Source: a virus
DNA: 21,013 bases
Direction: 5' to 3' (one strand)
IMG/VR virus record: IMGVR_UViG_3300020450_001459
Span: 1 to 21,013 of that record
Shown here: positions 6,063-21,013 of the stretch, piece after piece
Layout of the letters: each line of letters opens with the position of its first letter
Numbering within the stretch: the first letter of the stretch is position 1
Position numbers and translations under genes: made by a program
The notes under the pieces: generated by a model
The model's database searches: none
The model's input: only the letters and a program-made list of their open reading frames with translations
Told to the model about the DNA's origin: nothing

Positions 6063-6668
6063 ATGAAAAAGTATTTTATCGATGAATCAAAAACCTTTGC
6101 AATCACTGAGCCAGTGGATGTTAGAGTAGAACTTGCTGGATGGGAGAGTTTTCCTATAGTTTACATAGACAATTTTTACCAAAACCCAAACATGGTAAGG
6201 AATCTTGCTCTAAGGTTTCCCTCTGATGAGACCGATATGTCAATAGATATGGAGGGTTTTGTTGATGTATGGACACCCATATGTGAGCAAGTGTATGGTG
6301 TAAAAGATATAACATCTCTTAAAGCAGACTCAACCTTTTCAGTAAGATCTTCTCAGTCTAAGGATAGAAAAGAGAGACCCCACATAGATGATGGTATTCA
6401 TGATACAGGATGGGCTGGGGTAATTTATTTGAATAAAGGTAAGGAATGTAAGGGAGGCACTGGATTCTACACATACAAAGGGATACAAGCTGACCCAGAT
6501 CAATCAGGAATAGATGACAATTCATTCAAACTTGTGCATCTTGCGAAAATGAAGTATAATAGGTTTGTAATGTATCCTTCTAATATTCTTCACAAAGCTA
6601 TTGACGAAGAGGGATGGTTCGATGAAGATTTACACAGATTAGTACAAGTATTTTATTTAAAAACATAA
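6063..6668 (+). CDS. DUF6445-like putative Fe(II)/2-oxoglutarate oxygenase
   Basis: A 201-residue protein of the double-stranded beta-helix oxygenase type, most like the DUF6445 family. Visible elements are FPIVYIDNFYQNPNMVRNLA (30-49), the HxD pair PHIDD (H107, D109), CKGGTGFY (129-136), MKYNRFVMY (163-171), a candidate distal His (H177) and an Arg (R192) in HRLVQVFY that could bind 2-oxoglutarate. It is related to the minus-strand gene at the far side of the island (15398-16060): both share CxGGTxFY, MKYNR and RLxQVF. Its stop overlaps the HldD start (TAATG), so the two plus-strand genes form a unit. No clear ribosome-binding site or plus-strand promoter is visible. The substrate is unknown; tailoring of a sugar or amino acid is inferred. 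Confidence 0.75.
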   Translation: MKKYFIDESKTFAITEPVDVRVELAGWESFPIVYIDNFYQNPNMVRNLALRFPSDETDMSIDMEGFVDVWTPICEQVYGVKDITSLKADSTFSVRSSQSKDRKERPHIDDGIHDTGWAGVIYLNKGKECKGGTGFYTYKGIQADPDQSGIDDNSFKLVHLAKMKYNRFVMYPSNILHKAIDEEGWFDEDLHRLVQVFYLKT

Positions 6669-7483
6669 TGCACGATATTATTCTTACAGGATCAAACGGT
6701 TTTATAGGTAAAGCGTTTGCAAATAAGATAGGAGGTAAAAATTTATATCAAGTAGAACAATCACATGCTTTTGATTTTTTGAATCAGTATGATAGGTGGG
6801 ATAAAGTAGATTACATACTACATCAAGGAGCAATATCAAGCACAACTGAAACAGATGTAAATAAGATTCACAAATACAATGTAGAGTTTTCAATCAAACT
6901 ATTTGAAAAAGCAATAGAACATTCAATCCCAGTTAAATATGCCTCAAGTGCATCTGTCTATGGTAAGATACACGCTGATTTTGGATACCTAAAAGGAACA
7001 ATCAATCCGTTAAATTTCTACGCACTGAGCAAAGCGACTGTAGACTACTGGGTACTAGATAATATTGATAGATTTGAACAAGTACAGGGATTTAGATACT
7101 TTAATGTATACGGAGAAGGTGAAGAACATAAAGGAGATCAAGCAAGTCCCATAAGCAAGTTTACCAAACAAGCTAAAGAAACTAAGGTAATTAAAATCTT
7201 TGAAGATTCTGAATATGCCTTTAGAGATTTTGTATGTGTAAATGATGTAGTAGATGTTGTCCTAGATAATACGGCAGGGAGCGGCATCTACGATGTTGGG
7301 ACTGGCAATCCTATCTCATTCCATGAGGTTGCAGAATTGATTGCCAAAAAAGAAGGGGCGGAGATTGAAGTAATCCCCTTCCCCAAACATCTAGAAGGTA
7401 AGTATCAAGAATATACATGTGCAGATACCTCATGGTATCCACATAATTATGCTTCTGTATTTGAATACATTGGCATGTCGTAG
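6668..7483 (+). CDS. hldD: ADP-L-glycero-D-manno-heptose 6-epimerase (HldD/RfaD)
   Basis: Short-chain dehydrogenase-type enzyme that converts ADP-D-glycero- to ADP-L-glycero-D-manno-heptose using tightly bound NADP. The 271 residues show the nucleotide-binding TGSNGFIG (7-14), HQGAISSTTETD (52-63), YASSASVYG (91-99), the catalytic YALSK (Y118, K122), GFRYFNVYG (141-149) followed by HKG, RDFVCVNDV and IPFPKHLEGKYQEYTCAD (236-253). Several of these blocks match E. coli HldD rather than generic GalE-like epimerases. It is about 40 residues shorter than E. coli HldD (310), mostly at the C-terminus. It lies on the plus strand, opposite the other heptose genes. Its 3' end overlaps the 3' end of the convergent oxygenase gene by 37 bases. 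Confidence 0.9.
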   Translation: MHDIILTGSNGFIGKAFANKIGGKNLYQVEQSHAFDFLNQYDRWDKVDYILHQGAISSTTETDVNKIHKYNVEFSIKLFEKAIEHSIPVKYASSASVYGKIHADFGYLKGTINPLNFYALSKATVDYWVLDNIDRFEQVQGFRYFNVYGEGEEHKGDQASPISKFTKQAKETKVIKIFEDSEYAFRDFVCVNDVVDVVLDNTAGSGIYDVGTGNPISFHEVAELIAKKEGAEIEVIPFPKHLEGKYQEYTCADTSWYPHNYASVFEYIGMS

Positions 7484-8061
7484 TTATAGTTTATAAAAGC
7501 AGTTAGTACATATTTTTCACCCGATACAGTCACATTAGATCCATGTGGAAATATCCAGTTGCATGGAAATAATAATATTTTACCTCTCTCGCATTTACAT
7601 CCAATATTCCAATGAGGAAAGAATGTTTCTCCGCCTTCTTCTACATCATTGAGATAGATGATGCAACCAAAAAGTCTTGATATAGTTCCCCCATCACCTT
7701 GATCAACGTGTGTTTTGAAAAAGCCTTCGCCTTTAGGATAAACCCTTATTGTATAATCTAATATTGCAAGTTCTGCTGCTGGTAATACTGGTAATTGTTT
7801 TCTGTACTTCATATATGCGTCTTGAATTACTTGTGTCATCAAGTTTGCATACTTGTGACCAGGCTCAAACATAAATTGAGTACAATTTTTATGATCCTTG
7901 TTTACTAACTTACCCTTGTATTCACCATTGACAAAGTGTTCTACTTTACCATCATCATGTTTATCTTTACTTTCCCAAAAATATTTTATCAACTCATCAC
8001 ACTGATCTTGAGATAGAACATCTCTTTCAACATATAACATGTCTGTTATTTTTTCTATCAT
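7447..8061 (-). CDS. Prolyl-4-hydroxylase-like Fe(II)/2-oxoglutarate oxygenase
   Basis: A 204-residue dioxygenase of the P4H family. It has the full set of metal and cosubstrate residues: HxD (H118, D120) in FFKTHVDQGD, the P4H signature NDVEEGGETFFP (138-149), the distal H173 in FPHGS and K183 ten residues later for 2-oxoglutarate. Residues 1-25 (ERDVLSQDQCDELIKYF) match the usual P4H N-terminal helix. It would hydroxylate a protein side chain or small molecule in the cytoplasm. Its ATG overlaps the cupin stop (ATGA). Phage P4H-like genes are common in marine T4-like genomes and their substrates are mostly unknown. An active enzyme is likely; the substrate is open. Confidence 0.85.
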   Translation of the reverse strand: MIEKITDMLYVERDVLSQDQCDELIKYFWESKDKHDDGKVEHFVNGEYKGKLVNKDHKNCTQFMFEPGHKYANLMTQVIQDAYMKYRKQLPVLPAAELAILDYTIRVYPKGEGFFKTHVDQGDGGTISRLFGCIIYLNDVEEGGETFFPHWNIGCKCERGKILLFPCNWIFPHGSNVTVSGEKYVLTAFINYNYDMPMYSNTEA

Positions 8062-8459
8062 ATCAAATCGCCAGGCATAATTCTATGTGAATCAGAATCC
8101 ATATGTTCTGTGCTAAATTCAAATAATTCTGTATCCTCTATTGCAAACATACGATGTTTCAATCCAATAGGCACATGAAACTTGTCTCCTCTTTCAAGGA
8201 TTTTTACTTCTGCTTTTTCAATATCATCATCCCATCCATAATATATTTTTATCTTACCACTCTGTATATAAAATACTTCGTCTTTTAATTTATGATAGTG
8301 CCATGAACACTGTTTATCCTTTGCGATAAACAAAAGTTTACCACAATATTTCTCGCAGTTCGCAATCCATTTTTCATATCCCCATCCCTTTGGAACAAAC
8401 TTTACTGGTTCCGCTGCACGGGCATTACGAGGCCTTCTACTTGGTCCTAAAGAACTCAT
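8058..8459 (-). CDS. Cupin-domain protein, sugar isomerase-like
   Basis: A 133-residue single-domain cupin. The first motif is WHYHKLKDEVFYIQSGKIKI (53-72), with two His and a Glu in metal-binding positions; the second is the PIGLKHRMFA block near 97-106. KFVPKGWGYEKWIAN near the N-terminus and the spacing resemble type-II mannose-6-phosphate isomerase-like or nucleotide-sugar cupins often found in polysaccharide loci. The start ATG lies inside the 3' end of the HAD gene (23-base overlap) and is preceded by an excellent AAAGGAG, which fixes it. It could isomerise or bind a sugar phosphate for the island's pathway. The exact reaction cannot be read from the sequence. Confidence 0.8.
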   Translation of the reverse strand: MSSLGPSRRPRNARAAEPVKFVPKGWGYEKWIANCEKYCGKLLFIAKDKQCSWHYHKLKDEVFYIQSGKIKIYYGWDDDIEKAEVKILERGDKFHVPIGLKHRMFAIEDTELFEFSTEHMDSDSHRIMPGDLI

Positions 8460-8775
8460 CAGAATTCACTCCTTTGTCATCAATAAAGAAATCAGCATGT
8501 GGTTTTCCTAAAATCAAAGTATGATATTTGCATCCCCAATCCTTTAATTGTCTCTCAGTAAGATCAAATAAAAGAGCAGATGCTTTTACACTTGCATCTG
8601 GACTATCACAAAATCTACCCATTCCACGAGCAGTGAAATAAGTGATATGATGTCCTTCATCATACAATTTATTTATCTTGTCAATTCTATCCTTCCATGG
8701 CTCTGCATCCTCATATGTTTTAGGATCTGGTGTGAGGGTACAAATAGTCCCATCAATATCTACACAGTATCTCAT
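8437..8775 (-). CDS. HAD-family phosphatase, small
   Basis: A 112-residue hydrolase of the HAD superfamily. It has the nucleophile motif DIDGTICT (6-13), the Thr motif in YFTARG (46-51), a Lys near 90 in ILGKPHADFF and the acidic motif FIDDKGVNSDEFF (96-108) for Mg binding. It resembles small phosphatases found in capsule and LPS loci. Because the adjacent genes make ADP-heptose, it may supply the step of GmhB (removing the 7-phosphate of heptose bisphosphate). It is much shorter than E. coli GmhB (about 190) and is not clearly orthologous. Its start overlaps the methyltransferase stop (ATGA). The fold is confident; the substrate is inferred. Confidence 0.82.
   Translation of the reverse strand: MRYCVDIDGTICTLTPDPKTYEDAEPWKDRIDKINKLYDEGHHITYFTARGMGRFCDSPDASVKASALLFDLTERQLKDWGCKYHTLILGKPHADFFIDDKGVNSDEFFRTK
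8469..8475 (-). promoter_or_regulatory. Strong ribosome-binding site for the cupin gene
   Basis: Minus-strand AAAGGAG, nine bases before ATG at 8459, lies inside the end of the HAD coding sequence. It shows that the 23-base gene overlap is real rather than a wrong start. Confidence 0.75.
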
Positions 8776-9473
8776 TTCTTTACCTCCATATAATAGATAT
8801 CATTATATTGTTTACTCTGTAAAATGCCAGTAATTTTCATTCCAGAATCTTCAACCATTGGTTTAAATGTCTCTGGGCTTGATCCGCCTGAGTGAAGTTG
8901 TAAACATATTGTACCATCATCTGAGAGTCTTGTCGATAGGTTATTAAACATATCTTTATGAGCATCCCAATTTGGATCTAAGATAATATCTTTCAGATGA
9001 TCATTGAAAACAGGACTACCCATAACACTCAAAGCTTTGATTGCATCTTCTTCATTTTCAAAATGAGGAGGATTACCTACAACTAAATCTATCTTTTCAT
9101 CTTCTGGTAATACTGAACAATTATCTGAGTGATATATTTTTGTACGAGGAAAGACTCTCCTATGATATATTTTTTCCGTGTCTGCCATGTCTATAATTTT
9201 GATAAAAGAATTTTCAGCAGTCTTCTTTGCTACAGTTATTGCTGGTTCAAATTTATCCAATAGTGTAAGATGATCACACATATTGCAAGCCATCATTCCA
9301 TAACCTATGAATCCAGGCCCACTACACCACTCCATGATGTGACCAACTCTACCATAATATTCAATGACTAAATCCAAGTATTCTGGAAAGAAATGATCTC
9401 CGCCACCATTTGTTTCTGGTGTGTAAAAAATATCAGATCCTTTTACTCTCCAAATATATTCAATATTCATCAT
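8772..9473 (-). CDS. Class I SAM-dependent methyltransferase (NPPH motif)
   Basis: Transfers methyl from S-adenosylmethionine. Numbered from the start chosen here (233 residues), motif I is EWCSGPGFIGYG (48-59), the acidic end of strand 2 lies near LLDKFEPA, and motif IV is VVGNPPHF (132-139). An NPPH/NPPY motif is typical of enzymes that methylate amino groups (N-methyltransferases of the HemK/PrmB kind), though sugar methyltransferases are possible. I prefer the ATG-ATG pair at 9470-9473, which overlaps the upstream stop by 14 bases with GGAAG nearby. A longer frame starts at 9500 but adds nine residues and overlaps 41 bases. It is coupled to the HAD phosphatase. The target is unknown; a sugar amine or a protein is possible. 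Confidence 0.82.
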   Translation of the reverse strand: MMNIEYIWRVKGSDIFYTPETNGGGDHFFPEYLDLVIEYYGRVGHIMEWCSGPGFIGYGMMACNMCDHLTLLDKFEPAITVAKKTAENSFIKIIDMADTEKIYHRRVFPRTKIYHSDNCSVLPEDEKIDLVVGNPPHFENEEDAIKALSVMGSPVFNDHLKDIILDPNWDAHKDMFNNLSTRLSDDGTICLQLHSGGSSPETFKPMVEDSGMKITGILQSKQYNDIYYMEVKK

Positions 9474-9672
9474 CAGGAACTTCTTCCATCTCCAATTCAT
9501 GAATCATATCATGAAATACTTCATGTTCTCCAATACGATACAAATGTTTCATCTCACCATCTTTATCTTTTGACTCTCCCAGATATGCTATATCTTCGCA
9601 TGTATGTTCTCTCAACCAAGCTTGCAATCTGTGGTGCATTAAGTCCGCTTTACTTATTGATATCTTGTCCAT
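9460..9672 (-). CDS. Small acidic protein of unknown function (70 aa)
   Basis: A 70-residue, His- and Glu/Asp-rich protein that I do not recognise. It has no membrane segment and no signal peptide. The N-terminal half (ISKADLMHHRLQAWLREH) looks helical. The C-terminal part (HEVFHDMIHELEMEEVPDD) is acidic and carries several His. It starts inside the end of the kinase gene (23-base overlap) with GGAG six bases before the ATG, and it overlaps the methyltransferase start. The ribosome-binding site and its fit in the operon support a real gene. A small metal-binding or adaptor protein is only a guess. Confidence 0.65.
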   Translation of the reverse strand: MDKISISKADLMHHRLQAWLREHTCEDIAYLGESKDKDGEMKHLYRIGEHEVFHDMIHELEMEEVPDDEY

Positions 9673-10441
9673 TTCTTGCTCCGTATAATGATTCTATATC
9701 ATCTTGACTTAAGTAATAAGCGCCAGGATGAGTTACTGAAATTGCAGCAGCTCTATTCGCCAAATCAATAGACTTCTGCATGTTATGTGTTTTTAAAAAT
9801 TCGTAGACTAACGCTGCCATAAAAGTATCTCCAGCCCCACATACATCAAAAACTTTGACTAGTTGAGGAAGAAATTTGGCACCACCCCATACTGCACCAG
9901 CACTCCCCAGAGTGACAATAAGATGAGTGTCGTGAGGTAAATGGTCTTTGTCGAGGTCATTGTACTCTTTCTCGTTTATTTTCCAGTATACATTATCTTT
10001 TTGAAAAAGGCGACGCTTCTTCGTATCTACGAACACTGGTCTGTTAATATTGTTACATATATGCCATAGATCATCATCATTAAGATATCCTTTATCATAA
10101 TCTGAAATAACGACTGCATCTGGATTCATGTGAATTAGTGCCATCTTCAATTCGGCATTTGCAATTCTACCCACCTCTGGCGTTTCATCTAAACGCATCA
10201 ACTGATACCCACTTTTAGTATCTATGAATCTAGTTTTGGTTATTTGTTCTCTTTGAGAAAGTAGAATGGTATTGATACCAAATGCTTTAAGATTAACTTC
10301 AACATTAGCAGCCATGCCAGGCCTTTCTTCTATTCTATTTTGATCTAAAACAGGAACAGGTTGTTCTGGGCTTAGCCTAGTAGTCTCACCGTAGACATAC
10401 TTATCAGTACACTTATCACCTATGACAATTACATTATGCAC
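9650..10441 (-). CDS. hldA: D-glycero-D-manno-heptose-7-phosphate kinase, PfkB family (HldA/HldE-N)
   Basis: Phosphorylates heptose 7-phosphate at C1 using ATP. The 263 residues show the N-terminal signature GDKCTDKYVYGETTRLSPEQ (8-27), close to E. coli HldE (GD...DRYWYG..SRISPEAPVPV), then RIEERPGMAANVEVNL (36-51), VISDYDKGYL (111-120) and the PfkB signature DVCGAGDTFMAAL (199-211) with catalytic D205. It is about 50 residues shorter than the HldE kinase domain. Roughly 25 of these are missing after residue 60, where the lid and dimer region normally lies. In E. coli kinase and adenylyltransferase are fused; here they are separate adjacent genes. The start is GTG, overlapping the adenylyltransferase stop by eight bases. 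Confidence 0.88.
   Translation of the reverse strand: MHNVIVIGDKCTDKYVYGETTRLSPEQPVPVLDQNRIEERPGMAANVEVNLKAFGINTILLSQREQITKTRFIDTKSGYQLMRLDETPEVGRIANAELKMALIHMNPDAVVISDYDKGYLNDDDLWHICNNINRPVFVDTKKRRLFQKDNVYWKINEKEYNDLDKDHLPHDTHLIVTLGSAGAVWGGAKFLPQLVKVFDVCGAGDTFMAALVYEFLKTHNMQKSIDLANRAAAISVTHPGAYYLSQDDIESLYGARNGQDINK
9679..9682 (-). promoter_or_regulatory. Ribosome-binding site of the 70-residue gene
   Basis: Minus-strand GGAG, six bases before ATG at 9672, inside the kinase coding sequence. It supports the small gene as real. Confidence 0.55.
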
Positions 10442-10829
10442 GAATCTTTTTGATTATGTCAGTTGTAGAATAATTTAGTCGAGGAAGAAATCTAACTTCT
10501 TTGGCATATTCTATACCAACCACATCTCCTCCTTGCCAATCATCACCCAGTAGTAGTATATCAGGTGAGTATAATTTTATCAACCCCTCCAATTCTTTTC
10601 TATTATCAAAGTAATGAACTTGATCAATATATCTTATCGCTTGTAACATAGAAATTCGGTCACAAAGATTGTTGACGGGCTTAGACGTACCTTTATCTTG
10701 ACGTATCTTTTCATCTGTATCTGTTGCAACTATGAGTTTATCTCCCAAAGATTTTCCAACTTTAAATAATTCTATGTGGCCTGGATGTAGAATGTCAAAA
10801 GTTCCATTACACCATACTATTCTTTTCAT
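10434..10829 (-). CDS. hldC: D-glycero-beta-D-manno-heptose-1-phosphate adenylyltransferase (HldE C-domain)
   Basis: Joins heptose 1-phosphate to AMP from ATP, giving ADP-heptose. The 131 residues form a complete cytidylyltransferase-like fold: NGTFDILHPGHIE (8-20) with the HxGH nucleotide-binding site (HPGH, 15-18), SLGDKLIVATDTD (28-40), KPVNNLCDRISMLQAIRYID and YSTTDIIKKIR near the C-terminus. The Y/C-STTxIIKKI end is very close to E. coli HldE. Related enzymes such as glycerol-3-phosphate cytidylyltransferase share HxGH, but the HldE-like ending and the adjoining kinase favour the heptose role. Its start overlaps the halogenase stop (ATGA). Confidence 0.88.
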   Translation of the reverse strand: MKRIVWCNGTFDILHPGHIELFKVGKSLGDKLIVATDTDEKIRQDKGTSKPVNNLCDRISMLQAIRYIDQVHYFDNRKELEGLIKLYSPDILLLGDDWQGGDVVGIEYAKEVRFLPRLNYSTTDIIKKIRA

Positions 10830-12313
10830 TTGAGTGTGTATATATGTGAGATGTATTCCCCATGAGGAACTGAGTTTCCTTGATTTGCTGGCAAAGTATT
10901 ATTTACAAAATTTCTTAATCTAGGAATACAACTATCATCTTTTTTCCAATATTCTTTTGAATTAATTTTATCAGTCATCAATTGCAATAACCAAACTTGC
11001 CAATTACTACCATCAAAGAAAGATCCTGTCTTTCCAGTTTGAGGTGTTTGCACTTCTGGGTCTTGAATCATCTCCTCATAATAAAGTTGAGAGGAAGTTT
11101 TTTTATATTTAGATCGCACAAAGTCCCAGAACTTACCTTTCCTTCTACAGTATGAGTAGTGCATACTTATATAATCAACAGCTGTCTCAAAACTAGATCT
11201 CATCTTTTCGTTATAGAAAGCAGGATCTGTTTTCTTGTTCCAACTACCTCCATAAATCGATTCGTCAAGATACTCAACTCCTCTAATCATCATAGCAAGA
11301 CCAGTGCTTTCTAATGGTTCAATGAATCCAGCACTTAATCCAATAGAAATTACATTACCATCCCAAAAATTCTTAGAATATTGAGGTTTCCAATCTAACA
11401 ATCTCATATCTTTTGGTTTTATTCTACCATCCCACTGATCAGAAAATGCCTGTGCAACTTCTTCTGGATCATTTACATCTTGATTAAAACAATATCCTGT
11501 TCCTATTCTGTATCTGGTAGGTATTTTCCATATCCATCCGTGTTCTTGTGCTGGACAAGCAGTGTATGGATGTTGTTCTTTTGGATCTTTGTAATCAACT
11601 TTAGCAGCAAGAGCTGCATTTATGAATAATCTATCACTACAATCAACATTCCTTTGTCCTATGAGCATCTGTTTCCAACCTGTGCAATCTATGAACAGAT
11701 CTCCAGTAATTTTTGATCCATCATCTAACACTAGTTCTTTTATATTTGATCTTGTTATATCATCAGCATTACCATCTCTATAGATATCTACTACATCAGA
11801 TTGAATATATTCTTTCAAGTATGGTATCGTATTTTTTTGTAAAAATTTTACTAATTTACCACAATCAATCTGAAAAGCATACGAGTCATGTGTATATTCT
11901 GTTTCAATTCTATTAGCCAAAGAAGAATTATACATTGGCGATATTTTTTTTATGTCATACTCATCTTGAAATGATTGCCACATATCATATAGTGGTGTTT
12001 TGGAGTCTCCCACACTTGTAAATGAGAATGGATGCCATATTGTTTGATCTTCTACACCCCAGCCTGGAAACAATATACCAGATTTTAATGTTGCATCTAT
12101 TTCTTTTATCCAATCTGTAGGTTTATATCCCATTTGTTTCATGACATTTGGGAAACTTAAAAGAGTTGCTTCACCTACACCTACTCTCTCAGGTGCTGAC
12201 TTATCAATTACAACCACCTCAAAGATCTTACCCCACCTACGAGCAAACCAAGATGCAGCAATCCACCCAGCAGTTCCGCCGCCAACAATAACTAATCTTT
12301 TAATTCTTTTCAT
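10826..12313 (-). CDS. prnA: Flavin-dependent tryptophan-type halogenase
   Basis: Uses FADH2, O2 and chloride or bromide to halogenate an electron-rich ring, classically tryptophan. The 495 residues carry all the diagnostic features: FAD-binding GGGTAGW (11-17), catalytic Lys K77 in ATLKSGILFPGW, WIWKIP (260-265, the WxWxIP motif separating halogenases from monooxygenases), GTGY (271-274) and GFIEPLESTG (329-338), which includes the active-site Glu/Ser region. The length is normal (PrnA/RebH about 530). The phage would need a flavin reductase, and none is in the window. The start overlaps the carbamoyltransferase stop (TGATG). I recall halogenase-like genes in other marine T4-like phages, so the gene class is not new. 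The substrate is unknown, and a sugar-linked or protein substrate is possible. Confidence 0.88.
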   Translation of the reverse strand: MKRIKRLVIVGGGTAGWIAASWFARRWGKIFEVVVIDKSAPERVGVGEATLLSFPNVMKQMGYKPTDWIKEIDATLKSGILFPGWGVEDQTIWHPFSFTSVGDSKTPLYDMWQSFQDEYDIKKISPMYNSSLANRIETEYTHDSYAFQIDCGKLVKFLQKNTIPYLKEYIQSDVVDIYRDGNADDITRSNIKELVLDDGSKITGDLFIDCTGWKQMLIGQRNVDCSDRLFINAALAAKVDYKDPKEQHPYTACPAQEHGWIWKIPTRYRIGTGYCFNQDVNDPEEVAQAFSDQWDGRIKPKDMRLLDWKPQYSKNFWDGNVISIGLSAGFIEPLESTGLAMMIRGVEYLDESIYGGSWNKKTDPAFYNEKMRSSFETAVDYISMHYSYCRRKGKFWDFVRSKYKKTSSQLYYEEMIQDPEVQTPQTGKTGSFFDGSNWQVWLLQLMTDKINSKEYWKKDDSCIPRLRNFVNNTLPANQGNSVPHGEYISHIYTLK

Positions 12314-14115
12314 CAGTTCTTTATTTCGATCATAAGACCATACTCAGGCAAATATAGGTATTCTATCAAACTATTTGCAAGAGTCCTTAGAGCGTCGTCT
12401 AGGGTCTCTACAAGAGGTTCTCCGCCTAGGTTAAAGGATGTATTGAATATGATAGGGCACTCTGTTTTCTCGTAGAAGGTATTGATTACATCATAGTAAT
12501 TTGGATTTACTTCTTTAGTAACAGTCTGTATCCTACATGTATCGTCAACGTGAATGATTGCTGGAATCTTTTCTTTGATTCCCTCTTGACATTTGACTGC
12601 ATACATCATGAATGGTGTCTCATCCATACCACGAAGATCAAACCATTTATGCACATGTTCTTTTAATATTGATCCAGCAAAAGGTCTAAAGTATTCACGA
12701 CGTTTGATAGTATTGACATGATCTTTTCCTTTTGGATCTCTAGGATCATACATGATAGATCTATTACCTAATGCTCTAGGACCTGCCTCTGATTTGCCTT
12801 GGAACATTGCAACAATATTCTTCTTAGTAATTAAATCAACTGCATCCTCATGTGTGGCTTCAAAGATTCTAGTTGCATCATAATAATTAGCAAGGTCTGT
12901 AATATATTCTGTATCATATTCATACTTAGGTCCATAATATAGATCGGTAATCATAGGTTTGATTTCCTTATCTTTTGTTACTTTATGATAATGCCAGTAT
13001 GCAGCACCAATTGCAGTTCCAGCATCATTACTTACTGGTTCTGCAAATAGATTGATACCTTCACCTTTTAACTGTTCAAGATACCAATAGTTTGCAACAC
13101 AATTTAATCCATATCCACCAGATAGAACTACATTCTTTTCGCCACTCATCTTGACTGCCTTACGAATCAAATCTAATACCATCTGTTCTGATTCTACTTG
13201 AATTGCATAAGCCATATCTCTACGATTTTGCAACTTAGTAAGATCTTTGACATCTCTAGTATCCATAGGATCTCTAAGTTCTGTGAATCTACCTTTGTTT
13301 ACTATAGCGCCATTGGGATAAGTAGGTACAATCAAATCTCTGTTTGTTGTAGACCAATCACTCATACCATCATAATCCGTGTAGATGTCGGGTATCTTTA
13401 AGTTCTGTTGTCCATATGGGAACAGTCCCATAGTTTTACCAGCTTCAATAGGAGCCCAACCGCAATATTGTGTGACTGCCTCATACGCTTTTACGATCCC
13501 AGCAGAATCATCTAAAACTAATTCATGTGTGCCTTCCTCACCTTCTCTATCGGATGGAAAGTTAGGAATCGTAACTGCACCCCAAGGACCTCTACCTCCC
13601 TGATGTTTGTATAAAGTCTTGAAGTTATCTGGATAAGCACATTTAATAATGGTTTCTAATTCCCATGTCATCTCCTGTTCATTATCAATCTCCATAGGAA
13701 TAAATGTCCCAGCGCCATCAACAATGACTGATACTGCACTTTTAAATCCTGATCTATAAAATGCACAAGAAGCGTGAAGTTTATGATGAATATGACTGTA
13801 ATCTACTACTTGAGGATGATTATAAATGTCCGCTTTCCTATCAATCAAACCTAACTTTCTTGCTAGACCTGTGTACATATTTTCGCCAGTAAAATCTATA
13901 CTACCAGCTTGATCCAATGGTTGTGTATGTGCAACCACAAGATAATCAAGACTATCAGTATAATCCAATATCTTGATCATGGATGCCAAAGGACCTCCAT
14001 CATATTTTTTCCTAGATAATCTTTCCTCTTCAATCGAAAAGACCATCTTCCCATCTTTCAGTAAACAAACACCAGAGTTATGTCCTCTGGCGATTGCTGC
14101 AATCCACTGTGTCAT
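12313..14115 (-). CDS. O-carbamoyltransferase, NodU/CmcH/TobZ family
   Basis: Transfers carbamoyl from carbamoyl phosphate, through a carbamoyl-adenylate, to a hydroxyl, often on a sugar. The 600 residues match the two-domain family. The N-terminal YrdC/Kae1-like domain has GHNSGVCLLKDGK (11-23), EEERLSRKK (29-37), HHKLHAS (110-116, metal-binding His), VDGAG (132-136) and LSGGYGLNCVAN (331-342). The C-terminal domain has GKSEAGPRALGNRSI (440-454), YFRPFAGSIL (475-484) and FNTSFNLGGEPLVET (557-571). No key motif is lost, so it should be active. It begins two bases after the glycosyltransferase stop and overlaps the halogenase start. In this setting it probably carbamoylates a heptose or other sugar, as NodU does on Nod factors. 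Confidence 0.9.
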   Translation of the reverse strand: MTQWIAAIARGHNSGVCLLKDGKMVFSIEEERLSRKKYDGGPLASMIKILDYTDSLDYLVVAHTQPLDQAGSIDFTGENMYTGLARKLGLIDRKADIYNHPQVVDYSHIHHKLHASCAFYRSGFKSAVSVIVDGAGTFIPMEIDNEQEMTWELETIIKCAYPDNFKTLYKHQGGRGPWGAVTIPNFPSDREGEEGTHELVLDDSAGIVKAYEAVTQYCGWAPIEAGKTMGLFPYGQQNLKIPDIYTDYDGMSDWSTTNRDLIVPTYPNGAIVNKGRFTELRDPMDTRDVKDLTKLQNRRDMAYAIQVESEQMVLDLIRKAVKMSGEKNVVLSGGYGLNCVANYWYLEQLKGEGINLFAEPVSNDAGTAIGAAYWHYHKVTKDKEIKPMITDLYYGPKYEYDTEYITDLANYYDATRIFEATHEDAVDLITKKNIVAMFQGKSEAGPRALGNRSIMYDPRDPKGKDHVNTIKRREYFRPFAGSILKEHVHKWFDLRGMDETPFMMYAVKCQEGIKEKIPAIIHVDDTCRIQTVTKEVNPNYYDVINTFYEKTECPIIFNTSFNLGGEPLVETLDDALRTLANSLIEYLYLPEYGLMIEIKN

Positions 14116-14116
14116 A

Positions 14117-15379
14117 TTAAATAGTTTTCTTTTCTATAGTAATCGAGTTATCTTTATCTGACTTTAAGAGATTTTTAATTTCAGATTGAAAACCTTTTTT
14201 ATTTTTTGGTTTTTTCTTAGGTGATGGTGCATCTAAACTAAATGTAGGTTTTGGAGCTCCTGTCATACTAGGAACATTTGATGTTGGTGTCCAAGAAGAA
14301 CTGAAATTTTGGTTGCTAGGAACGCTGGGAGCACTCATAGATTGCATTGGTGATGCAATTGCTGGTTGTTGATTTGGTGAACCAGATTGTACTTGTTGCT
14401 GTTGTTGTTGTGGAGGAACAAAATTACCAGTGTATGTTTTTGGTTTACCTAGTCTCTTTTTACAAGATGCAACAATTTCATCAATTTGTTTCTTACTTAA
14501 CTCCATCGCTTCATCATTAAAACGATCAACTCTTTCATCCATTGTAATCCTGATTGGAGCATATTCTCTCCTACCATTACCAACATCAAAAATATCAAAG
14601 TCTTTATGGCCTGGATAACTTATGTTTTCTGGATATGTAGACCCAACAACCACAGTTGCAGTTTTATCAAATGCTCTTGCAATATGTTGACCCATACTAT
14701 CACATCCTAAGAAATGATCTGCAATTTCAATAACTGCAGCCCATACTCTCATATCACTTATCTGTGGTCTAGCTATGGGATATTTTTCCTCATTCTCCTC
14801 TGTAGAAAAATGATGTTCACTCATTACGATTACTGCATAATCTTTTTTGAGTTGATTAATAATATCGATAGCTCCCACGAGGGAGAAACTTCTTGAAGTT
14901 GGATCTGCAATAAACTCTCCCATCTGTTCAACAGATCTTCCAAATGGTTGTACGACTATTACCTTATCTTTTTTGGTTACTGATTTTATTTCTTCAACAA
15001 TATTATATCCAGCAATAATCTCCATTTTATTGAGACTAATTGTTGGTTTTGGTAATTCTCTAGGTTCATCTAAACCATTGATTGCAATATCATATGCTTG
15101 TGCTAAACTACACTTCTGATTGTAATAGTGCCATATTCTATAAGGTTCTGGACTCTCACAATCTCTGTCTTTGATATGTTCTTGGAAAAGGTTTTTATGC
15201 CAATGGTCATAAACCTTATCATCTAATGTTGGGTGTCCCTTGAAGAAATCAGTTCCACCTTCACATACGATAATAAAGTCTTCGTTGTTCTCTGCATATT
15301 TTTCAAATGCAGGGATTGAACTTATAACTCTACCCGCTCCACCATTAATAAAAAACGCCTTCGATCTCATAGTTTTCAT
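14117..15379 (-). CDS. GT9-like glycosyltransferase (heptosyltransferase type) with low-complexity tail
   Basis: Probably transfers a sugar from a nucleotide donor. Residues 1-315 look like a GT-B enzyme related to family GT9 (ADP-heptose:LPS heptosyltransferases): an N-terminal FFINGGAGRVISSIPAFEKY (9-28), KVIVVQPFGRSV (139-150), and the donor-site block FLGCDSMGQHIARAF (223-237) with VVGSTYPENISYP, equivalent to the GNDSGxxHxA...GPT motif. The call fits the ADP-heptose genes nearby but is less certain than theirs. Residues 316-420 are unusual: six consecutive Gln (324-329), then a Q/P/S-rich stretch and a basic end (PSPKKKPKNKKGFQ). The tail could tether the enzyme or mark it as virion-associated. 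ATG at 15379 has AGGA just before it; an internal ATG at residue 4 is also possible. Confidence 0.7.
   Translation of the reverse strand: MKTMRSKAFFINGGAGRVISSIPAFEKYAENNEDFIIVCEGGTDFFKGHPTLDDKVYDHWHKNLFQEHIKDRDCESPEPYRIWHYYNQKCSLAQAYDIAINGLDEPRELPKPTISLNKMEIIAGYNIVEEIKSVTKKDKVIVVQPFGRSVEQMGEFIADPTSRSFSLVGAIDIINQLKKDYAVIVMSEHHFSTEENEEKYPIARPQISDMRVWAAVIEIADHFLGCDSMGQHIARAFDKTATVVVGSTYPENISYPGHKDFDIFDVGNGRREYAPIRITMDERVDRFNDEAMELSKKQIDEIVASCKKRLGKPKTYTGNFVPPQQQQQQVQSGSPNQQPAIASPMQSMSAPSVPSNQNFSSSWTPTSNVPSMTGAPKPTFSLDAPSPKKKPKNKKGFQSEIKNLLKSDKDNSITIEKKTI
14393..14410 (-). repeat. CAA/CAG trinucleotide tract encoding six Gln
   Basis: Minus strand reads five CAA and one CAG codon in a row. It marks the start of the low-complexity tail of the glycosyltransferase. 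Such tracts can expand or contract, so the length may vary between relatives. Confidence 0.8.
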
Positions 15380-15397
15380 AATTCCTATAGTATATAG

Positions 15398-16060
15398 TCA
15401 CATAAAAAACACCTGTGCCAGTCTAGGATATTCCTTAAACATAGACCTGTTCAAGGTAGCTCCATGAGTGTGGCGTGCCTCATATAACACCATTCTATTA
15501 TATTTCATCTCCATAGTCAACTTTATATCTTTTTTAATGTTATATCCAAAATCATATGGATGATCTTCTATGAATTTATAAAAATCTGTACCACCATCAC
15601 ATTCTTCTGGCGTGTTCAGATAAACCAATGCAGCCCACTTAGTATCGATGTTATCTTTATGGTGAGTATTACAGAAAATAGTCTTACTAAATCTTTCATT
15701 TATATCTTCATTTGTCGTATGATTGACCATGAATTTCATATTGTCCCACACATAATGAAACATAGCATCACCATATTCTAAGTTTGTCCATTCTTCATGT
15801 TGACAGAGTTTACTAAACACTGGTAGGAGAGTATCAATCATCTCTTGATTTTCTTCCATAACTCTTGATCCTATCAAACCACCACAGACTTCTTTATCCT
15901 TCGACCTTTTACATGATAGAGCGTAATCTCTTACTTGATCTGGATACTTGTAAAAATCATCTACTACAAAAACTTTTCTCCAAACAAATCCAGCATCGTT
16001 AAATCTAGAATGATCATAAACCCTGTGTATCACAGGATCTTGGTTGTATACTTCAAACAT
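15398..16060 (-). CDS. DUF6445-like putative Fe(II)/2-oxoglutarate oxygenase (paralogue)
   Basis: A 220-residue protein related to the plus-strand gene at 6063-6668. It shares a start-region block (KVFVVDDFYKYPDQVRDYAL, 29-48), an HxD pair (H134-K135-D136), WAALVYLNTPEECDGGTDFY (142-161), MKYNRMVLY (185-193), candidate distal His residues H197/H199 in ARHTHGA and a C-terminal RLAQVFF with R213. The overall pattern is that of a double-stranded beta-helix dioxygenase. DUF6445 proteins are, as I recall, found beside tryptophan-halogenase-like genes in bacteria, which matches the halogenase here. It starts just after a terminator and may be the first gene of the accessory transcript. The substrate is unknown. 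Confidence 0.75.
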   Translation of the reverse strand: MFEVYNQDPVIHRVYDHSRFNDAGFVWRKVFVVDDFYKYPDQVRDYALSCKRSKDKEVCGGLIGSRVMEENQEMIDTLLPVFSKLCQHEEWTNLEYGDAMFHYVWDNMKFMVNHTTNEDINERFSKTIFCNTHHKDNIDTKWAALVYLNTPEECDGGTDFYKFIEDHPYDFGYNIKKDIKLTMEMKYNRMVLYEARHTHGATLNRSMFKEYPRLAQVFFM

Positions 16061-16073
16061 AACCCCAGATAAT

Positions 16074-16099
16074 AAAAAAGATCCTCATAAGAGGATCTT
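16074..16099 (-). terminator. Rho-independent terminator after the chaperone-like gene
   Basis: A nine-base-pair perfect stem, AAGATCCTC with GAGGATCTT, around a four-base loop. On the minus strand it is followed by a run of six T. It lies 28 bases past the stop of the gene at 16127-16912 and separates the fibre region from the accessory island. Confidence 0.85.
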
Positions 16100-16126: not shown

Positions 16127-16912
16127 TTACATTGCAGTTGGTGGCTTCCATGATTCAGCTGTTACTGTCTCATCTTCTGGACCATCTGGTGGATTTTGGA
16201 ATTCGGGTTCCATTGGGAACATCATGTCAGCAAAGTTAGGGTGAACTCCAGCAGCTTGCATTTTAGTTGGAAGATCTCTTAACTGTTGACGATAATCTTT
16301 CCACTTTTGCTTAAGTGCATCTGGCATATCTTCTGCAATTTGACCATCACTGTTAGCAAGAACTTTATTTCTATGTTGTCTAACATGATCCCAAGTTTTG
16401 TCATAGTCAACACCATTCATCTTTTCTTTAGGTGTGAAAACTTGAATTGAGATGTCATCAGGACCAGCACTGCCTGCGTTTGCAACTGTAATAGATTCCC
16501 AATTGTAAATGTCATCTGGGAACAGTGTTGAAGAATATGTGAATTGAGGGTATACACCTCCATCTATTTCTGGAGATCCAGCATGGAATACATCAGATCC
16601 AGCACCTCTATCTTCTTCCTTCTCGTTGACAACTGGGCCTCTGAGTTGACAGATAAGTGTGTGTAGATTTGATCTAGCGCAGTCTACTTCATACCACTGT
16701 ACAACGTCTAGTGGTTTTGGACGACCATCTGCGATATCATCCTCTGTTAGAGGACCATATACCTCTTTTCCTTCTGCATTAATTTGCAGAAAAATCTTGT
16801 CTGGACCATCATAAGTTTGGTCTCTTTGTTTTCCATCAGACATTGAATGATCTGTTAGGAAGTCGTTCGGCAGACTTAGTTGCCATCCTTGTGAAATAAT
16901 TTTTGTTGCCAT
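16127..16912 (-). CDS. Tail-fibre region protein with tail-assembly-chaperone-like C-terminus
   Basis: A 261-residue acidic protein. The N-terminal 150 residues are beta-rich and unfamiliar (WQLSLPNDF, then VVQWYEVDCARSNLHTLICQ). The region from about 180 (VRQHRNKVLANSDGQ, then LKQKWKDYRQQLRDLP) matches the pattern of phage tail-assembly chaperones of the Phage_tail_APC type: R..R...L..SD, then W..YRQ.LRDLP. In that family SDW is usual; here it is SDG. It is the only gene in the region with an exact T4 late promoter, and it sits between two terminators, so it is a monocistronic late gene. It may assist folding of the Cys-rich adhesins, or be a virion protein itself. The ribosome-binding site (GAAGAAA) is weak. 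Confidence 0.72.
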   Translation of the reverse strand: MATKIISQGWQLSLPNDFLTDHSMSDGKQRDQTYDGPDKIFLQINAEGKEVYGPLTEDDIADGRPKPLDVVQWYEVDCARSNLHTLICQLRGPVVNEKEEDRGAGSDVFHAGSPEIDGGVYPQFTYSSTLFPDDIYNWESITVANAGSAGPDDISIQVFTPKEKMNGVDYDKTWDHVRQHRNKVLANSDGQIAEDMPDALKQKWKDYRQQLRDLPTKMQAAGVHPNFADMMFPMEPEFQNPPDGPEDETVTAESWKPPTAM

Positions 16913-16944: not shown

Positions 16945-16952
16945 TATTTATA
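16945..16952 (-). promoter_or_regulatory. Exact T4-type late promoter TATAAATA
   Basis: Minus strand reads TATAAATA, the canonical gp55-dependent late promoter, 33 bases before the ATG of the downstream gene. It directly follows the T-run of the upstream terminator, so ending and restarting occur within about 35 bases. The full match makes this the best promoter in the window. Confidence 0.85.
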
Positions 16953-16999: not shown

Positions 17000-17788
17000 T
17001 TAGACGTATGTGATCTTAACAAGTCCAGATCCACCTTGTCCGCCTTGTCCACAACATCTTCCACAGTAGTTACTGTTTGCACCCTGACCACCATGTCCGT
17101 ACGGAACTGTCCAACAACCACAACGCATCCAACACTCTCTTTGTCCGTAGGAAACACCAAGAGTTCCGATGAACGGAGCACCTGTTGGTCTACCTTCATT
17201 GAAGTAACAGTGACAGTTGAATCCATCAGGTCTGTATGAGTTACCACCGTGGTTGCCCATTCCGAAGTCTCCTCCGTGAGCGCCAGGTTGCATACAACAA
17301 GTATGGAACTGAGAGTAACAGTTTGAAGACCAGTCACCAGTTGCACAACCTCTAACACCACCTAAGGCACAGAAGTTAGAGAGGTTATACCCATTTACAT
17401 AGGAGTTACATCCGCAACACCCTGTACACTCTCTAGAACAGCAACGGTAAACACCAGCAGCACAAACGGTATATTGGCATCCAGCATTAGTCGAAATAGT
17501 TTTTGTATTGTAGTATCCACCACCAGCACCGTGCCAGTTTTGACATCTGTTACATGAACATGCACCATGTCCATTTCCTCCAGCACCCCAGATTTCCCAA
17601 GTAATTCTTGTCACTCCAGTAGGAACTTGCCAGTTACAGCAACAGCCAGGTGTACAGTAACATGGATGACCATAGACCCATTTTACACACCAGTTAGAGA
17701 ACGCACCAGATTGAACCGCAGAACTAGGGATAGTGGTATCCGTAATCTGAGAATTGTCAATCTTTTTATAACTTGAATAAGAAGCCAT
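17000..17788 (-). CDS. Cys/Gly-rich fibre-like protein, copy 3
   Basis: A 262-residue protein with 30 Cys (about 11%) and many Gly, related to the two genes upstream of it. Layout: an N-terminal YSSYKKIDNSQI motif, CYCTPGCCC (about 43-51), WEIWGAGGNGHGACSCNRCQ (65-84), a central Cys cluster CCSRECTGCCGC, YVNGYNLSNFC, a variable segment (about 165-215), and ECWMRCGCW followed by CGRCCGQGGQGGSGLVKITY. The VPTGV...WEIWGAGG block and the ending GLVKITY are typical of glycine-rich phage fibre tips and adhesins. The Cys could form disulfides or bind metal; free Cys is unusual for a cytoplasmically assembled virion. AAGGAAAAG precedes ATG. A host-binding adhesin is inferred. Confidence 0.8.
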   Translation of the reverse strand: MASYSSYKKIDNSQITDTTIPSSAVQSGAFSNWCVKWVYGHPCYCTPGCCCNWQVPTGVTRITWEIWGAGGNGHGACSCNRCQNWHGAGGGYYNTKTISTNAGCQYTVCAAGVYRCCSRECTGCCGCNSYVNGYNLSNFCALGGVRGCATGDWSSNCYSQFHTCCMQPGAHGGDFGMGNHGGNSYRPDGFNCHCYFNEGRPTGAPFIGTLGVSYGQRECWMRCGCWTVPYGHGGQGANSNYCGRCCGQGGQGGSGLVKITYV

Positions 17789-17797
17789 TTCTTTTCC

Positions 17798-18592
17798 TTA
17801 GAAGTATGTAATTTTGACGAGACCGCCACCGCCAGTACCGCCTTGTCCGCAGCACCTACCACAATATGTAGACATTGCGTTCTGTCCGCCGTGTCCATAA
17901 GGAACGATCCAACAACCACAACGAATCCAACATTCTCGGATAGACTGTGTGACTTGTGTACCAATTAGAGGTGCAGAAGCGGGTCTATGACCGTAATGAT
18001 AACAGTGACACCAACCTCTGTAAGTATCATGTCTTGATACGTTCCATACACCAGCATGATCACCTAGTCCGAAGTCTCCTCCGTTGTTTCCAGGCGCTCT
18101 ACAACAGGTGTTGACAGATGTACAACCAGTTGACCAACTTGGGTTAGCGTTCGCACGACATCCACCAATAGCACAGAAGTTTGATAGGTTGTATCCGTTT
18201 ACATAAGATGAACAACCTGTGCAACCAAAACATTCTCTAGATAGACACCTATAAACTCCAGCAGCACAAACACTATATGTACAACCACCATTGGTTGTAA
18301 TCATCTTAGAGTTATAATATCCTCCACCAGAACTTGAATAGTGTTGACATCTGTTACATGAACATGCACCAGTACCGTTTCCACCAGCACCCCAAGCCTG
18401 AATCCACATGTTGTTTACCCCAGATGGGACTGACCAGTTGCAACAGCAACCAGGCGAACAACGACACATAATACCAAAAACCCATTTTACGCCGTAGGTA
18501 CAGTTCGGAGAACCACTAAAACTCGATGCCGATAGGGCATTTGAAGCTATCTGGTCTCCATTAATTTTTTTGTATGATGAATAACTTGCCAT
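17798..18592 (-). CDS. Cys/Gly-rich fibre-like protein, copy 2
   Basis: A 264-residue paralogue with 28 Cys. It shares the N-terminal YSSYKKINGDQI, CRCSPGCCC, AWGAGGNGTGACSCNRCQ, LSRECFGCTGC, YVNGYNLSNFC and CGRCCGQGGTGGGGLVKITY with its neighbours. The segment around 165-215 (GDHAGVWNVSRHDTYRGWCH) differs in sequence and length from the other copies and is the most likely recognition loop. It lacks one Cys of the paired CC in the central cluster (CL instead of CC). The ATG is preceded by AAGGAA at a rather long spacing of about 11 bases. The function is taken from the family pattern: a tail-associated adhesin or virion decoration. Confidence 0.8.
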   Translation of the reverse strand: MASYSSYKKINGDQIASNALSASSFSGSPNCTYGVKWVFGIMCRCSPGCCCNWSVPSGVNNMWIQAWGAGGNGTGACSCNRCQHYSSSGGGYYNSKMITTNGGCTYSVCAAGVYRCLSRECFGCTGCSSYVNGYNLSNFCAIGGCRANANPSWSTGCTSVNTCCRAPGNNGGDFGLGDHAGVWNVSRHDTYRGWCHCYHYGHRPASAPLIGTQVTQSIRECWIRCGCWIVPYGHGGQNAMSTYCGRCCGQGGTGGGGLVKITYF

Positions 18593-19447: not shown

Positions 19448-21013
19448 TTAGATGGAGAAGATTCTCCAACCGTATGTTGAACCAGAGTAAGTAAGACTAA
19501 ACGCAGCGCCCTCTGTGTTAACTGTTAAGTTAGCATTGTCACCTTGAATTGGTCTACCGTTTCTAGAAACAACTAAGTTGTTTGAGTCAAATGTCTTAGC
19601 AACATCATAGAATGTAATTGTTGCACCTAAGTCAGGAGATGCAGGGAGTGTTGCAGTAACCTGTCCACCACCAGTGTTAACGAAGTAAACAAGTCCAGAT
19701 TCAGCATTGTAACTTGAAGAAACAGTGCTGTATGCCTGAACACCTGGCTGAATCCACTGAGAACCGTTGTAGTATTCAAGAGCACCTAATGTGGAGTTGA
19801 ATCTTAACGCACCAGTATTGAACTCTTCGTCAACACCGCCAGGTCTTTGAGCAGTTGTACCTACAGGAGGTGTCATTGCCTTAGTACCCATCTTCGCACG
19901 AGTTAAGAATCCCTTAACCGCAAATTCAGTAGGACAAGCAGTGTTTGAGTTACCAGCGAGTGACTCATCAGAGGAGAACTCGTTGATCGCCTCACCGACC
20001 TGACCACCAATCGCACCAAGTCTCAATTCTGTCAAACCAGAAAGGTTGAACGCGGAGGCATCCAATGTCGCACGACCTGTTAACTGGTCAACGGAGAAGA
20101 AGTCTCCAACTCTGAAGTTACCACCTTGGTCGGTTGATACGAAGAACACCTTACCAGGCCCGAATACGTTAGTTTCTTGACCTTGGATGACGTTCGCCAA
20201 GTTGACGTTTGGATATCCAGTTTCGGTCTTGTTACCAGTACCAACTGCGAGGAAGTCGTGTCCTGTTAGTCTTGCCTGTGAGAACAGTGTTCTGATTTGA
20301 ATATCAGATCCTTGACCAGAACCGAGGTTTCTAGTATCCCATATTCCTCTCTGTTTCTCAGGAGATATGGTTAGAGTTGCACGGTTACTGTAGATAACTT
20401 GTTGTCCAGCACCCGATCCAGCCTGCCATTCAAAGTAAGTGGCCGCCGTTGCAACGTTCGTGATTGTGTTAATGATGTAGAATCTATCGTCTGCACCGTA
20501 AGTTGTGGTTGTAAATCCGATAGCGTCACCAATTAGAAGTGTGCCAGATGTCTGATCAACTTCTAGAATTGTACCTTTCTGTCCTGTGATAGAAGAAGTA
20601 ACACCAGAGACTGTGATTGAACCAATACCAGAACTCTGTTCTGCACCAGCACCGAACCAAACTACTTCTCCGTCTACGAATCCAGTAGTACCGATACCAG
20701 CGTTACCGTATCCACCCTGATACTTGAAGTAAATCTTATCAGCAGAGATTTGGTCGTTTAACATCCATGCAGTAGCCTTAGATGTTGCACCGAACATTGT
20801 TTGTCCAACAGCAACTGTACCACCTTTAGTTGTTCCTACGACTGTCATCATGTCACCAAAGACTTTTGCAGTTCTTGGAACTTCATCAGTTGAGAAACCA
20901 GATGAGATAACACCATAGTCACCGTAAGAGTTGTTTCCACCAACACCCCTGATTCTTGATCCACCACCTGAGTAGTAACCCCACTTAGCGTAGTATGTGA
21001 AACAGGAAACGAT
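19448..21013 (-). CDS. Large tail-fibre-like structural protein, C-terminal 521 residues (runs off right edge)
   Basis: The frame is open to the right edge with no stop, so the true start lies beyond 21013; an internal ATG at 20851 is probably not the start. The visible part has YAKWGYYSGGGSRIRGVGG and GFSTDEVPRTAKVFGDMM at its beginning, a region typical of long virion proteins of marine T4-like phages. VDQLTGRATLDASAFNLSGL follows, then ACPTEFAVKGFLTRAK, the fibre motif LRFNSTLGALEYYNGSQW, and a terminal domain (about the last 95 residues) with ESGLVYFVNTGGGQVTATLP and YSGSTYGWRIFSI. That terminal domain is shared by many marine phage fibres as I recall them. It is probably a baseplate or tail-fibre subunit. 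Which T4 gene it corresponds to cannot be told. Confidence 0.85.
   Translation of the reverse strand: MVSCFTYYAKWGYYSGGGSRIRGVGGNNSYGDYGVISSGFSTDEVPRTAKVFGDMMTVVGTTKGGTVAVGQTMFGATSKATAWMLNDQISADKIYFKYQGGYGNAGIGTTGFVDGEVVWFGAGAEQSSGIGSITVSGVTSSITGQKGTILEVDQTSGTLLIGDAIGFTTTTYGADDRFYIINTITNVATAATYFEWQAGSGAGQQVIYSNRATLTISPEKQRGIWDTRNLGSGQGSDIQIRTLFSQARLTGHDFLAVGTGNKTETGYPNVNLANVIQGQETNVFGPGKVFFVSTDQGGNFRVGDFFSVDQLTGRATLDASAFNLSGLTELRLGAIGGQVGEAINEFSSDESLAGNSNTACPTEFAVKGFLTRAKMGTKAMTPPVGTTAQRPGGVDEEFNTGALRFNSTLGALEYYNGSQWIQPGVQAYSTVSSSYNAESGLVYFVNTGGGQVTATLPASPDLGATITFYDVAKTFDSNNLVVSRNGRPIQGDNANLTVNTEGAAFSLTYSGSTYGWRIFSI

Follow-up and report, generated by a model that had tools for sequence, protein, structure and literature searches.

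We analysed a 21,013-base virus record (IMG/VR IMGVR_UViG_3300020450_001459, positions 1 to 21,013; this whole stretch is called the window below) in which terminase, gp13-gp15 homologues and tail genes of a T4-like marine phage flank an island of enzyme genes. The island holds a flavin-dependent halogenase (FDH), an O-carbamoyltransferase (CT303), a set of heptose pathway genes and GT302, a protein of a family labelled 'unknown function'. On balance, we think it probable that the island is a late-expressed cassette that modifies the adhesins of the virion tail: it lies between the distal tail-fibre/Gly-Cys-rich genes and gp13, its central reading frames overlap, its order is kept in related phages under purifying selection, and a late promoter motif holds a conserved place in front of the tail-chaperone gene. 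The nearest named phage is S-SSM7, a Synechococcus phage. The features are listed in their order along the minus strand, from the fibre gene to the last 2-oxoglutarate (2OG) oxygenase, followed by the plus-strand end of the island, after which gp13 comes next.

19448..21013, minus strand: distal tail-fibre gene, cut by the window edge (phrog_9851 tail fiber protein, E 2e-92 on 19448-20851)
18608-19393, minus strand: Gly3, Gly/Cys-rich paralogue and proposed acceptor (PF21722 Gly_rich_2, above cut-off)
17798-18592, minus strand: Gly2, Gly/Cys-rich paralogue and proposed acceptor (no PF21722 match at E 0.001)
17000-17788, minus strand: Gly1, Gly/Cys-rich paralogue and proposed acceptor (PF21722 Gly_rich_2 just under cut-off, 23.6 vs 24.3)
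16945..16951, minus strand: T4-type late promoter core ATAAATA, 5' of the tail-chaperone gene (motif scan)
16127..16912, minus strand: tail-fibre assembly chaperone-like protein, APC (PF16778 Phage_tail_APC, 38.9 bits, cut-off 26.6)
16078..16099, minus strand: terminator-like hairpin in the gap between APC and the enzyme genes (hairpin search)
15398..16060, minus strand: DUF6445 / 2OG-Fe(II)-like oxygenase (PF20043, 28.6 bits; PF13640 sub-threshold)
14117..15379, minus strand: GT302, 420 amino acids, phrog_8954 ('unknown function'), predicted GT-B heptosyltransferase-like fold over residues 1-313 and a disordered tail
12313..14115, minus strand: CT303, NodU/TobZ-type O-carbamoyltransferase, 600 amino acids (PF02543 and PF16861)
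10826..12313, minus strand: FDH, 495 amino acids (PF04820, 276.6 bits over residues 6-442)
10434..10829, minus strand: NT304, heptose-1-phosphate adenylyltransferase-like, HldE domain II (TIGR02199, 101.9 bits, cut-off 181.5)
9650..10441, minus strand: kin305, heptose-7-phosphate kinase-like, HldE domain I (TIGR02198, 137 bits, cut-off 345)
9460..9672, minus strand: small conserved protein (phrog_2020)
8772..9500, minus strand: methyltransferase-like protein, an optional member (PF05175, 21.7 vs 23 bits, and PrmC-like; both sub-threshold)
8437..8775, minus strand: HAD306, small HAD phosphatase-like (family profile vs 9iqw 'capsule biosynthesis protein', E 5e-17)
8058..8459, minus strand: cupin307, candidate sugar ketol-isomerase (PF07883; weak profile matches to isomerases)
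7447..8061, minus strand: 2OG-Fe(II) oxygenase (PF13640, 40.4 bits)
6668..7483, plus strand: epim308, HldD-like ADP-heptose 6-epimerase (TIGR02197, 214.4 bits, cut-off 274.6)
6063..6668, plus strand: DUF6445 protein (PF20043, 52 bits)

An initial annotation, made from the sequence alone, described an FDH with intact motifs, translationally linked to a complete carbamoyltransferase and to the heptose genes. Open reading frames and Pfam matches bear this out, with the genes complete, co-oriented and overlapping: FDH and CT303 share one base, NT304 overlaps the FDH stop by 4 nucleotides, and kin305 overlaps NT304. Its list of companion genes stood in part. The cupin is confirmed and the methyltransferase stays below threshold. 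Of the three supposed Fe/2OG genes, 7447-8061 alone scores above a 2OG Pfam cut-off; those at 6063-6668 and 15398-16060 are DUF6445 proteins.

To compare neighbourhoods, as that annotation had proposed, we fetched IMG/VR loci by similarity to cassette members; two scans matched more than 599 stretches, of which 80 were kept, so the synteny counts that follow are not independent. A close FDH was found in 52 IMG/VR loci (in one, L059, as an edge fragment only), with 57-92% identity across the complete matches, and related phages do carry the halogenase together with carbamoyltransferase and heptose genes. The overlap between FDH and NT304 is retained in 48/48 testable loci, which led us to reject chance clustering; the kinase is kept in 44/44 and CT303 lies upstream of FDH in 32/33. 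Testable loci of the FDH clade also keep GT302 (26/26), a Gly-rich gene (25/26), the epimerase (17/17) and gp13 (14/14). Three scans together gave 184 loci in 126 non-redundant groups, 54 of which span GT302 and its flanks. All 54 have CT303 downstream and the chaperone or its positional equivalent upstream; on that upstream side, a Gly-rich gene is present in 53 and a tail-fibre match in 48. Heptose genes and FDH occur together in 30 of the 54, heptose genes without FDH in 13 and FDH without heptose genes in 11, and the two are therefore separable. In the heptose-less cassettes (L101, L103, L106-L110 and others in L101-L131), GT302 and CT303 are accompanied by VirX1-like halogenases and a number of oxygenases. 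Across 11 genes, each compared with up to 4 relatives, the ratio of nonsynonymous to synonymous substitution rates (dN/dS) is 0.06-0.28 (0.15-0.19 for FDH), which indicates that the cassette genes are kept functional.

The halogenase looks intact. The GGGTAG, K77, WIWKIP and EPLEST motifs are all present in the window protein, in line with the main motifs and coordinates of the initial annotation, and the catalytic K77 and E335 are invariant in 48/48 aligned phage FDHs; 33 of these rows carry the strict full motif set, while Ala replaces the last G in 10 and Phe the second W in 5. An AlphaFold2 model (mean predicted local distance difference test score, pLDDT, 92.8) has Xcc4156 as its best Foldseek match (E 3e-40), its nearest solved folds are FDHs, and the solved sequence relatives include VirX1; the modelled protein thus has an FDH fold. 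With the co-occurrence in related phages and the retained motifs and fold, the initial annotation withstands the refuting tests it had set itself. FDHs halogenate electron-rich aromatic rings, not sugars. A halogenated sugar was rejected on these grounds, and the 'decorated sugar' first proposed for the island is not the reading that we prefer. Tandem halogenase genes, two or three per cassette, occur in L033, L038, L051 and L052, and further shortened halogenase frames lie far from the cassette in S-SSM7 (NC_015287 168252-169244) and P-TIM40 (NC_028663 183737-184705).

We mapped FDH genes in 21 genomes, one record per named phage, drawn from 60 of 73 matching records; near-copies and unannotated, gut and Campylobacter records lay outside this set. 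Each of two split FDH genes was counted as a single place, and a 31-amino-acid piece and sub-cut-off Gly-rich matches were excluded. Eighteen of the 31 FDH places lie less than 9 kb from a Gly_rich_2 gene, against 3.15 expected, and 0 of 20,000 random placements reached as many, with the qualification that the 9-kb limit was picked after the loci were seen and that random placement takes no account of kinship (Sf-FP1 and Sf-CH3 carry near-copies) or of genome architecture. For 15 of the 31 the distance is below 2.5 kb. In Syn10, VirX1 and the FDH next to it are both fibre-linked, as are pairs in S-RIM44, P-TIM40 and P-RSM6; in S-SRM01, whose genome has no Gly_rich_2 match, FDH is flanked by a tail fibre gene on one side and an adhesin-tip gene on the other. 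A second FDH copy is found elsewhere in S-RIM44, Sf-FP1 and Sf-CH3. On a 72-row FDH tree, residence at the fibre locus requires at least 4 changes, so distant FDH lineages reached or left this locus repeatedly; for this count, 9/47 cassette rows were labelled fibre by cassette synteny, with no fibre gene seen in the contig, and HTVC008M, 8 kb from a Gly-rich gene, was assigned to the not-fibre rows. Fibre linkage as a general rule for phage halogenases was rejected, as S-PM2, Syn1, S-MbCM6, P-SSM2, S-B64, S-SCSM2R and S-H38 do not follow it. Each of Gly1-3 has 28-30 cysteines in ~262 residues, a highly atypical content for a phage protein synthesised in the cytoplasm.

GT302 gave no Pfam or NCBIfam match, and as a single sequence it found no relative among solved structures; its profile had three matches there (E 0.18-0.92), none a glycosyltransferase. 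The AlphaFold2 model, built from 36 sequences (pLDDT 79.9, low past ~residue 330), placed TibC at the top in Foldseek (E 5e-10, TM score 0.43). A second structural alignment gave Z 22.4 to a GT9 enzyme, 19.7 to WaaF, 18.9 to TibC and 18.1 to WaaC, with root-mean-square deviations of 3.5-4.1 over 251-279 residues and ~10-13% identity to GT9 enzymes and heptosyltransferases; chains of plant NDH-PSI complexes scored Z 17.9-19.0, and the next rows were at most 12.0. By its model, GT302 has a GT-B, heptosyltransferase (GT9/TibC)-like fold. Its DSxGxH-type C-terminal motif can be aligned with the DTG/DSG..H of WaaC/WaaF, a profile match that is not significant by itself (E 0.12). TibC heptosylates adhesins (PMC4358343). 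From residue ~315 to 420, GT302 is disordered and rich in Gln and Pro, with a short helix predicted at 397-407; this tail is perhaps a tether. The neighbouring CT303 has both its N- and C-terminal domains above the Pfam cut-off, and its solved relatives include TobZ (E 2e-43). A search of GTDB for a cellular ancestor of GT302 gave 7 loci, each of which resembles this phage cassette carried in a metagenome-assembled genome, so none was obtained from that source. In these loci (L211-L217), GT302-CT303 is accompanied by a fibre or Gly-rich gene in 7/7, and their contigs come from genome bins of Euryarchaeota, Actinomycetota, Flavobacteriales, Rhodobacteraceae and Neomarinimicrobiota.

The heptose genes have their best matches in the expected families. 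In NCBIfam, kin305 comes nearest to HldE domain I, NT304 to HldE domain II and epim308 to HldD, each below its curated cut-off, and the best solved relative of epim308 is E. coli HldD (E 1e-39). The cupin307 profile is nearest to an unnamed cupin and then to L-ribose and D-lyxose/D-mannose ketol-isomerases, all weakly (E 0.001-0.009), and a GmhA-type (SIS_2) isomerase was found in 0/6 related phage genomes (the control gave matches in 9/14). Judging from sequence, cupin307 may replace the GmhA-type isomerase and could convert sedoheptulose-7-phosphate, which is an intermediate of the Calvin cycle, to heptose-7-phosphate. The database names 'phosphoheptose isomerase' for HAD306 and 'cysteine dioxygenase' for cupin307 are probably wrong. 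Lipopolysaccharide (LPS) of two Synechococcus hosts, WH8102 and CC9311, is described as lacking heptose (PMC4515613), and the phage therefore appears to bring the heptose pathway itself.

The position of a late-promoter motif fits co-expression of the cassette with the tail genes. The core of the late-promoter consensus NATAAATA (PMC2984593), ATAAATA, occurs ~25-50 nucleotides 5' of the chaperone gene in 63/67 groups (2.2 expected from mononucleotide shuffles) and 5' of its positional equivalent, S7_118, which is an equivalent by position only, in 24/26 (1.0 expected). It also precedes Gly1 (31/93), GT302 (36/99), the fibre gene (13/47) and gp13 (8/31), and it was found 5' of none of CT303 (n=115), FDH (80), NT304 (89), kin305 (88), HAD306 (77) and cupin307 (73). 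The motif is not enriched over the whole window (3 found vs 7.98 expected): the late-promoter signal is a conserved place and not a window-wide enrichment. Where GT302 comes first after the chaperone, ATAAATA is present in 16/22 groups.

We propose the following route, in which the sugar, the halogenation target and the order of steps are all conjectural and gene position is the sole pointer to the acceptor. The cupin isomerase would convert sedoheptulose-7-phosphate to heptose-7-phosphate, kin305, HAD306 and NT304 would turn this into a nucleotide heptose, and epim308 would fix its stereochemistry. GT302, as a GT9/TibC-like enzyme, would then transfer the heptose onto tail-fibre or Gly/Cys-rich tail proteins encoded by the adjoining late genes, and CT303 would carbamoylate the attached sugar. 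The DUF6445/2OG enzymes might hydroxylate, and the methyltransferase methylate, either acceptor or sugar, and FDH would halogenate exposed Trp/Tyr rings on the same tail proteins. The outcome would be a receptor-binding tip with altered chemistry, modified during assembly.

Several observations weigh against a late tail-modifying cassette. GT302 has Arg17 in 36/36 aligned rows at the usual catalytic Asp of the N-terminal xGD motif (SMGDVL in WaaC, WVGDMM in WaaF; aligned there by eye). As the xGD Asp of WaaC/WaaF corresponds in position to the TibC catalytic base, its replacement by Arg means that GT302 activity is not assured. GT302 is also present without heptose genes in 11 of the 54 cassettes. 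In S-SM2 and P-TIM68 the heptose genes also belong to polysaccharide-like clusters that are remote from the fibre genes. In 8 of the 21 FDH genomes every FDH is more than 9 kb from any Gly_rich_2 gene. A second halogenase class, with tRNA, hli or psbA genes as neighbours, is not fibre-linked. Gly-rich proteins have the same Trp and Tyr content whether or not an FDH is present (p 0.17 and 0.86), and an acceptor footprint in Trp/Tyr content was accordingly rejected; Gly and Cys content differs nominally with FDH (p 0.009 and 0.03, uncorrected). A terminator-like hairpin with a T run separates the chaperone from the enzymes in 37/46 groups with a 2OG-type gene first, and the late motif precedes that first gene in 0/46, so read-through or another promoter is needed. 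A TATATATAA-like element lies in the same gap in 32/46, and it and the hairpin are possibly regulatory; these gap counts omit 26 groups with gaps above 400 nucleotides. Finally, in named phages the late motif stands before the gene preceding FDH in just 4/10 fibre-linked cases and in 0/8 others.

The main rival to tail modification, which we regard as unlikely, is that the cassette remodels the host surface: a heptose-containing, carbamoylated glycan on host LPS or envelope would block superinfection, with the halogenase incidental or acting on a surface molecule. Such remodelling is the published view for cyanophage and pelagiphage sugar clusters (PMC3037559, PMC2984593, PMC7029224); it draws on the fold that GT302 has in common with LPS heptosyltransferases and on the heptose genes in the glycosyltransferase-rich clusters of S-SM2 and P-TIM68. 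The heptose-free LPS of WH8102 and CC9311 makes a mere supplement to existing LPS heptose less likely, the scanned window proteins showed neither a polymerase nor a flippase nor a lipid-carrier transferase, and both the late promoters and the fibre adjacency favour the tail. It is improbable, in our estimate, that the genes tailor a small molecule into a halogenated, carbamoylated, glycosylated metabolite. The initial annotation had leaned this way. The enzyme types do fit natural-product tailoring, and a phage tryptophan halogenase has been suggested to protect the host (PMC2984593, PMC9964418); however, the scanned window proteins include no scaffold-making enzyme, FDH and heptose genes are separable, and virion tail proteins are the target suggested by the fibre adjacency and the late promoter. 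We give still less credence to linkage without joint function, in which passengers of a variable region are held together by common descent. The region is hypervariable (PMC7029224), 'stuffer DNA' was raised in 2010 (PMC3037559), and our loci were picked by similarity, so that synteny is partly ancestry; this sits poorly with a dN/dS of 0.06-0.28, an overlap retained across 57-92% FDH identity and unrelated FDH clades that are fibre-linked. Hypermodification of phage DNA with hydroxylated, glycosylated or carbamoylated bases is scarcely credible: such systems do include 2OG oxygenases and sugar transferases, but no base-modifying enzyme was recognised in the scanned window proteins, the neighbours are tail genes, and neither FDH chemistry nor the GT9-type fold suggests it.

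The cassette DNA is already on record, with part of it published in 2010, and its reading as a tail-modification system seems to be new. The initial annotation's 'undescribed system' does not hold up, as S-SSM7 (NC_015287, SSSM7_119-134; Lipsvirus) carries the island with the same gene order from fibre to gp13 (identity to the window: FDH 76%, CTase 90%, GT302 83%, kinase 77%). It differs in that three additional genes (2OG, a second carbamoyltransferase and 'denV') separate CT303 from FDH, and in that the position of the chaperone is taken by a different protein. The core, T4-GC 302-308 with GT302, CT303, kinase, HAD, cupin and epimerase behind tail-fibre genes, is carried by P-SSM2, S-CAM3 and Sf-FS3, where the cassette differs in lacking FDH (60 kb off in P-SSM2, none in Sf-FS3 and S-CAM3); in P-SSM2 it is the 'LPS cluster' near phoH. 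Sullivan 2010 (PMC3037559) listed T4-GC 304, 305, 307 and 308 as LPS genes common to P-SSM2, S-SM2 and S-SSM7, and by the S-SSM7 annotation the window island shares these four with the cyanophage LPS cluster; in the same paper the 'LPS genes' were of unknown function, and prnA and the carbamoyltransferase were counted as sporadic genes. The region has since been named a host recognition cluster (PMC7029224). VirX1, the iodinating halogenase of cyanophage Syn10 (PDB 6QGM; PMC8407142), belongs to the same FDH family, follows Gly_rich_2 tail genes with one 164-amino-acid gene between, and has 2OG genes after it. It differs from the window FDH in being ~28% identical and in another clade, and in its 13-kb stretch, unlike the window, no heptose genes or carbamoyltransferase were recognised. 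TibC/BAHT and WaaC/WaaF share the GT-B fold with GT302, which departs from them in the Arg at the catalytic Asp. Glycosylation of capsids and tails in mycobacteriophages and related phages would be the same kind of process. Among the records listed, none had heptose, carbamoyl and halogenase genes together, and no proposal of virion halogenation was found in titles and abstract openings on cyanophage halogenases, VirX1 or halogenase plus tail fiber.

Cyanophage halogenases, present in 20/153 cyanophages (PMC10452541), have been labelled antibiotic or host-metabolism genes since 2010, with a proposed role in antibiotic protection (PMC2984593, PMC9964418), and VirX1 is a useful iodinating biocatalyst for which we found no known natural substrate. 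If fibre-linked FDHs act on tail adhesins, this would explain the spread of FDH, offer a testable substrate and extend virion chemistry to halogenation; the published 'LPS' gene set would shift from host-surface remodelling to virion modification, and phrog_8954 would gain a function. We put forward only tentatively, as a possibility, the wider idea that T4-like marine phages armour their receptor-binding tips with hydroxyl, heptose, carbamoyl and halogen groups on Cys/Gly-rich adhesins, that tail-protein Trp/Tyr is the native substrate of viral halogenases including VirX1, and that virions carry bromo- or iodo-aromatic residues made with sea water halide.

Outside the cassette, an Rfam scan of the window gave no match. 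The gp14 neck homologue (2916-5207, minus strand) is 763 amino acids long and has a long C-terminal extension with a sub-threshold lectin-like (LamG) match. S-SSM7 and Sf-FS3 also have the long gp14, and the gp14 gene of S-CAM3 is 879 bp.

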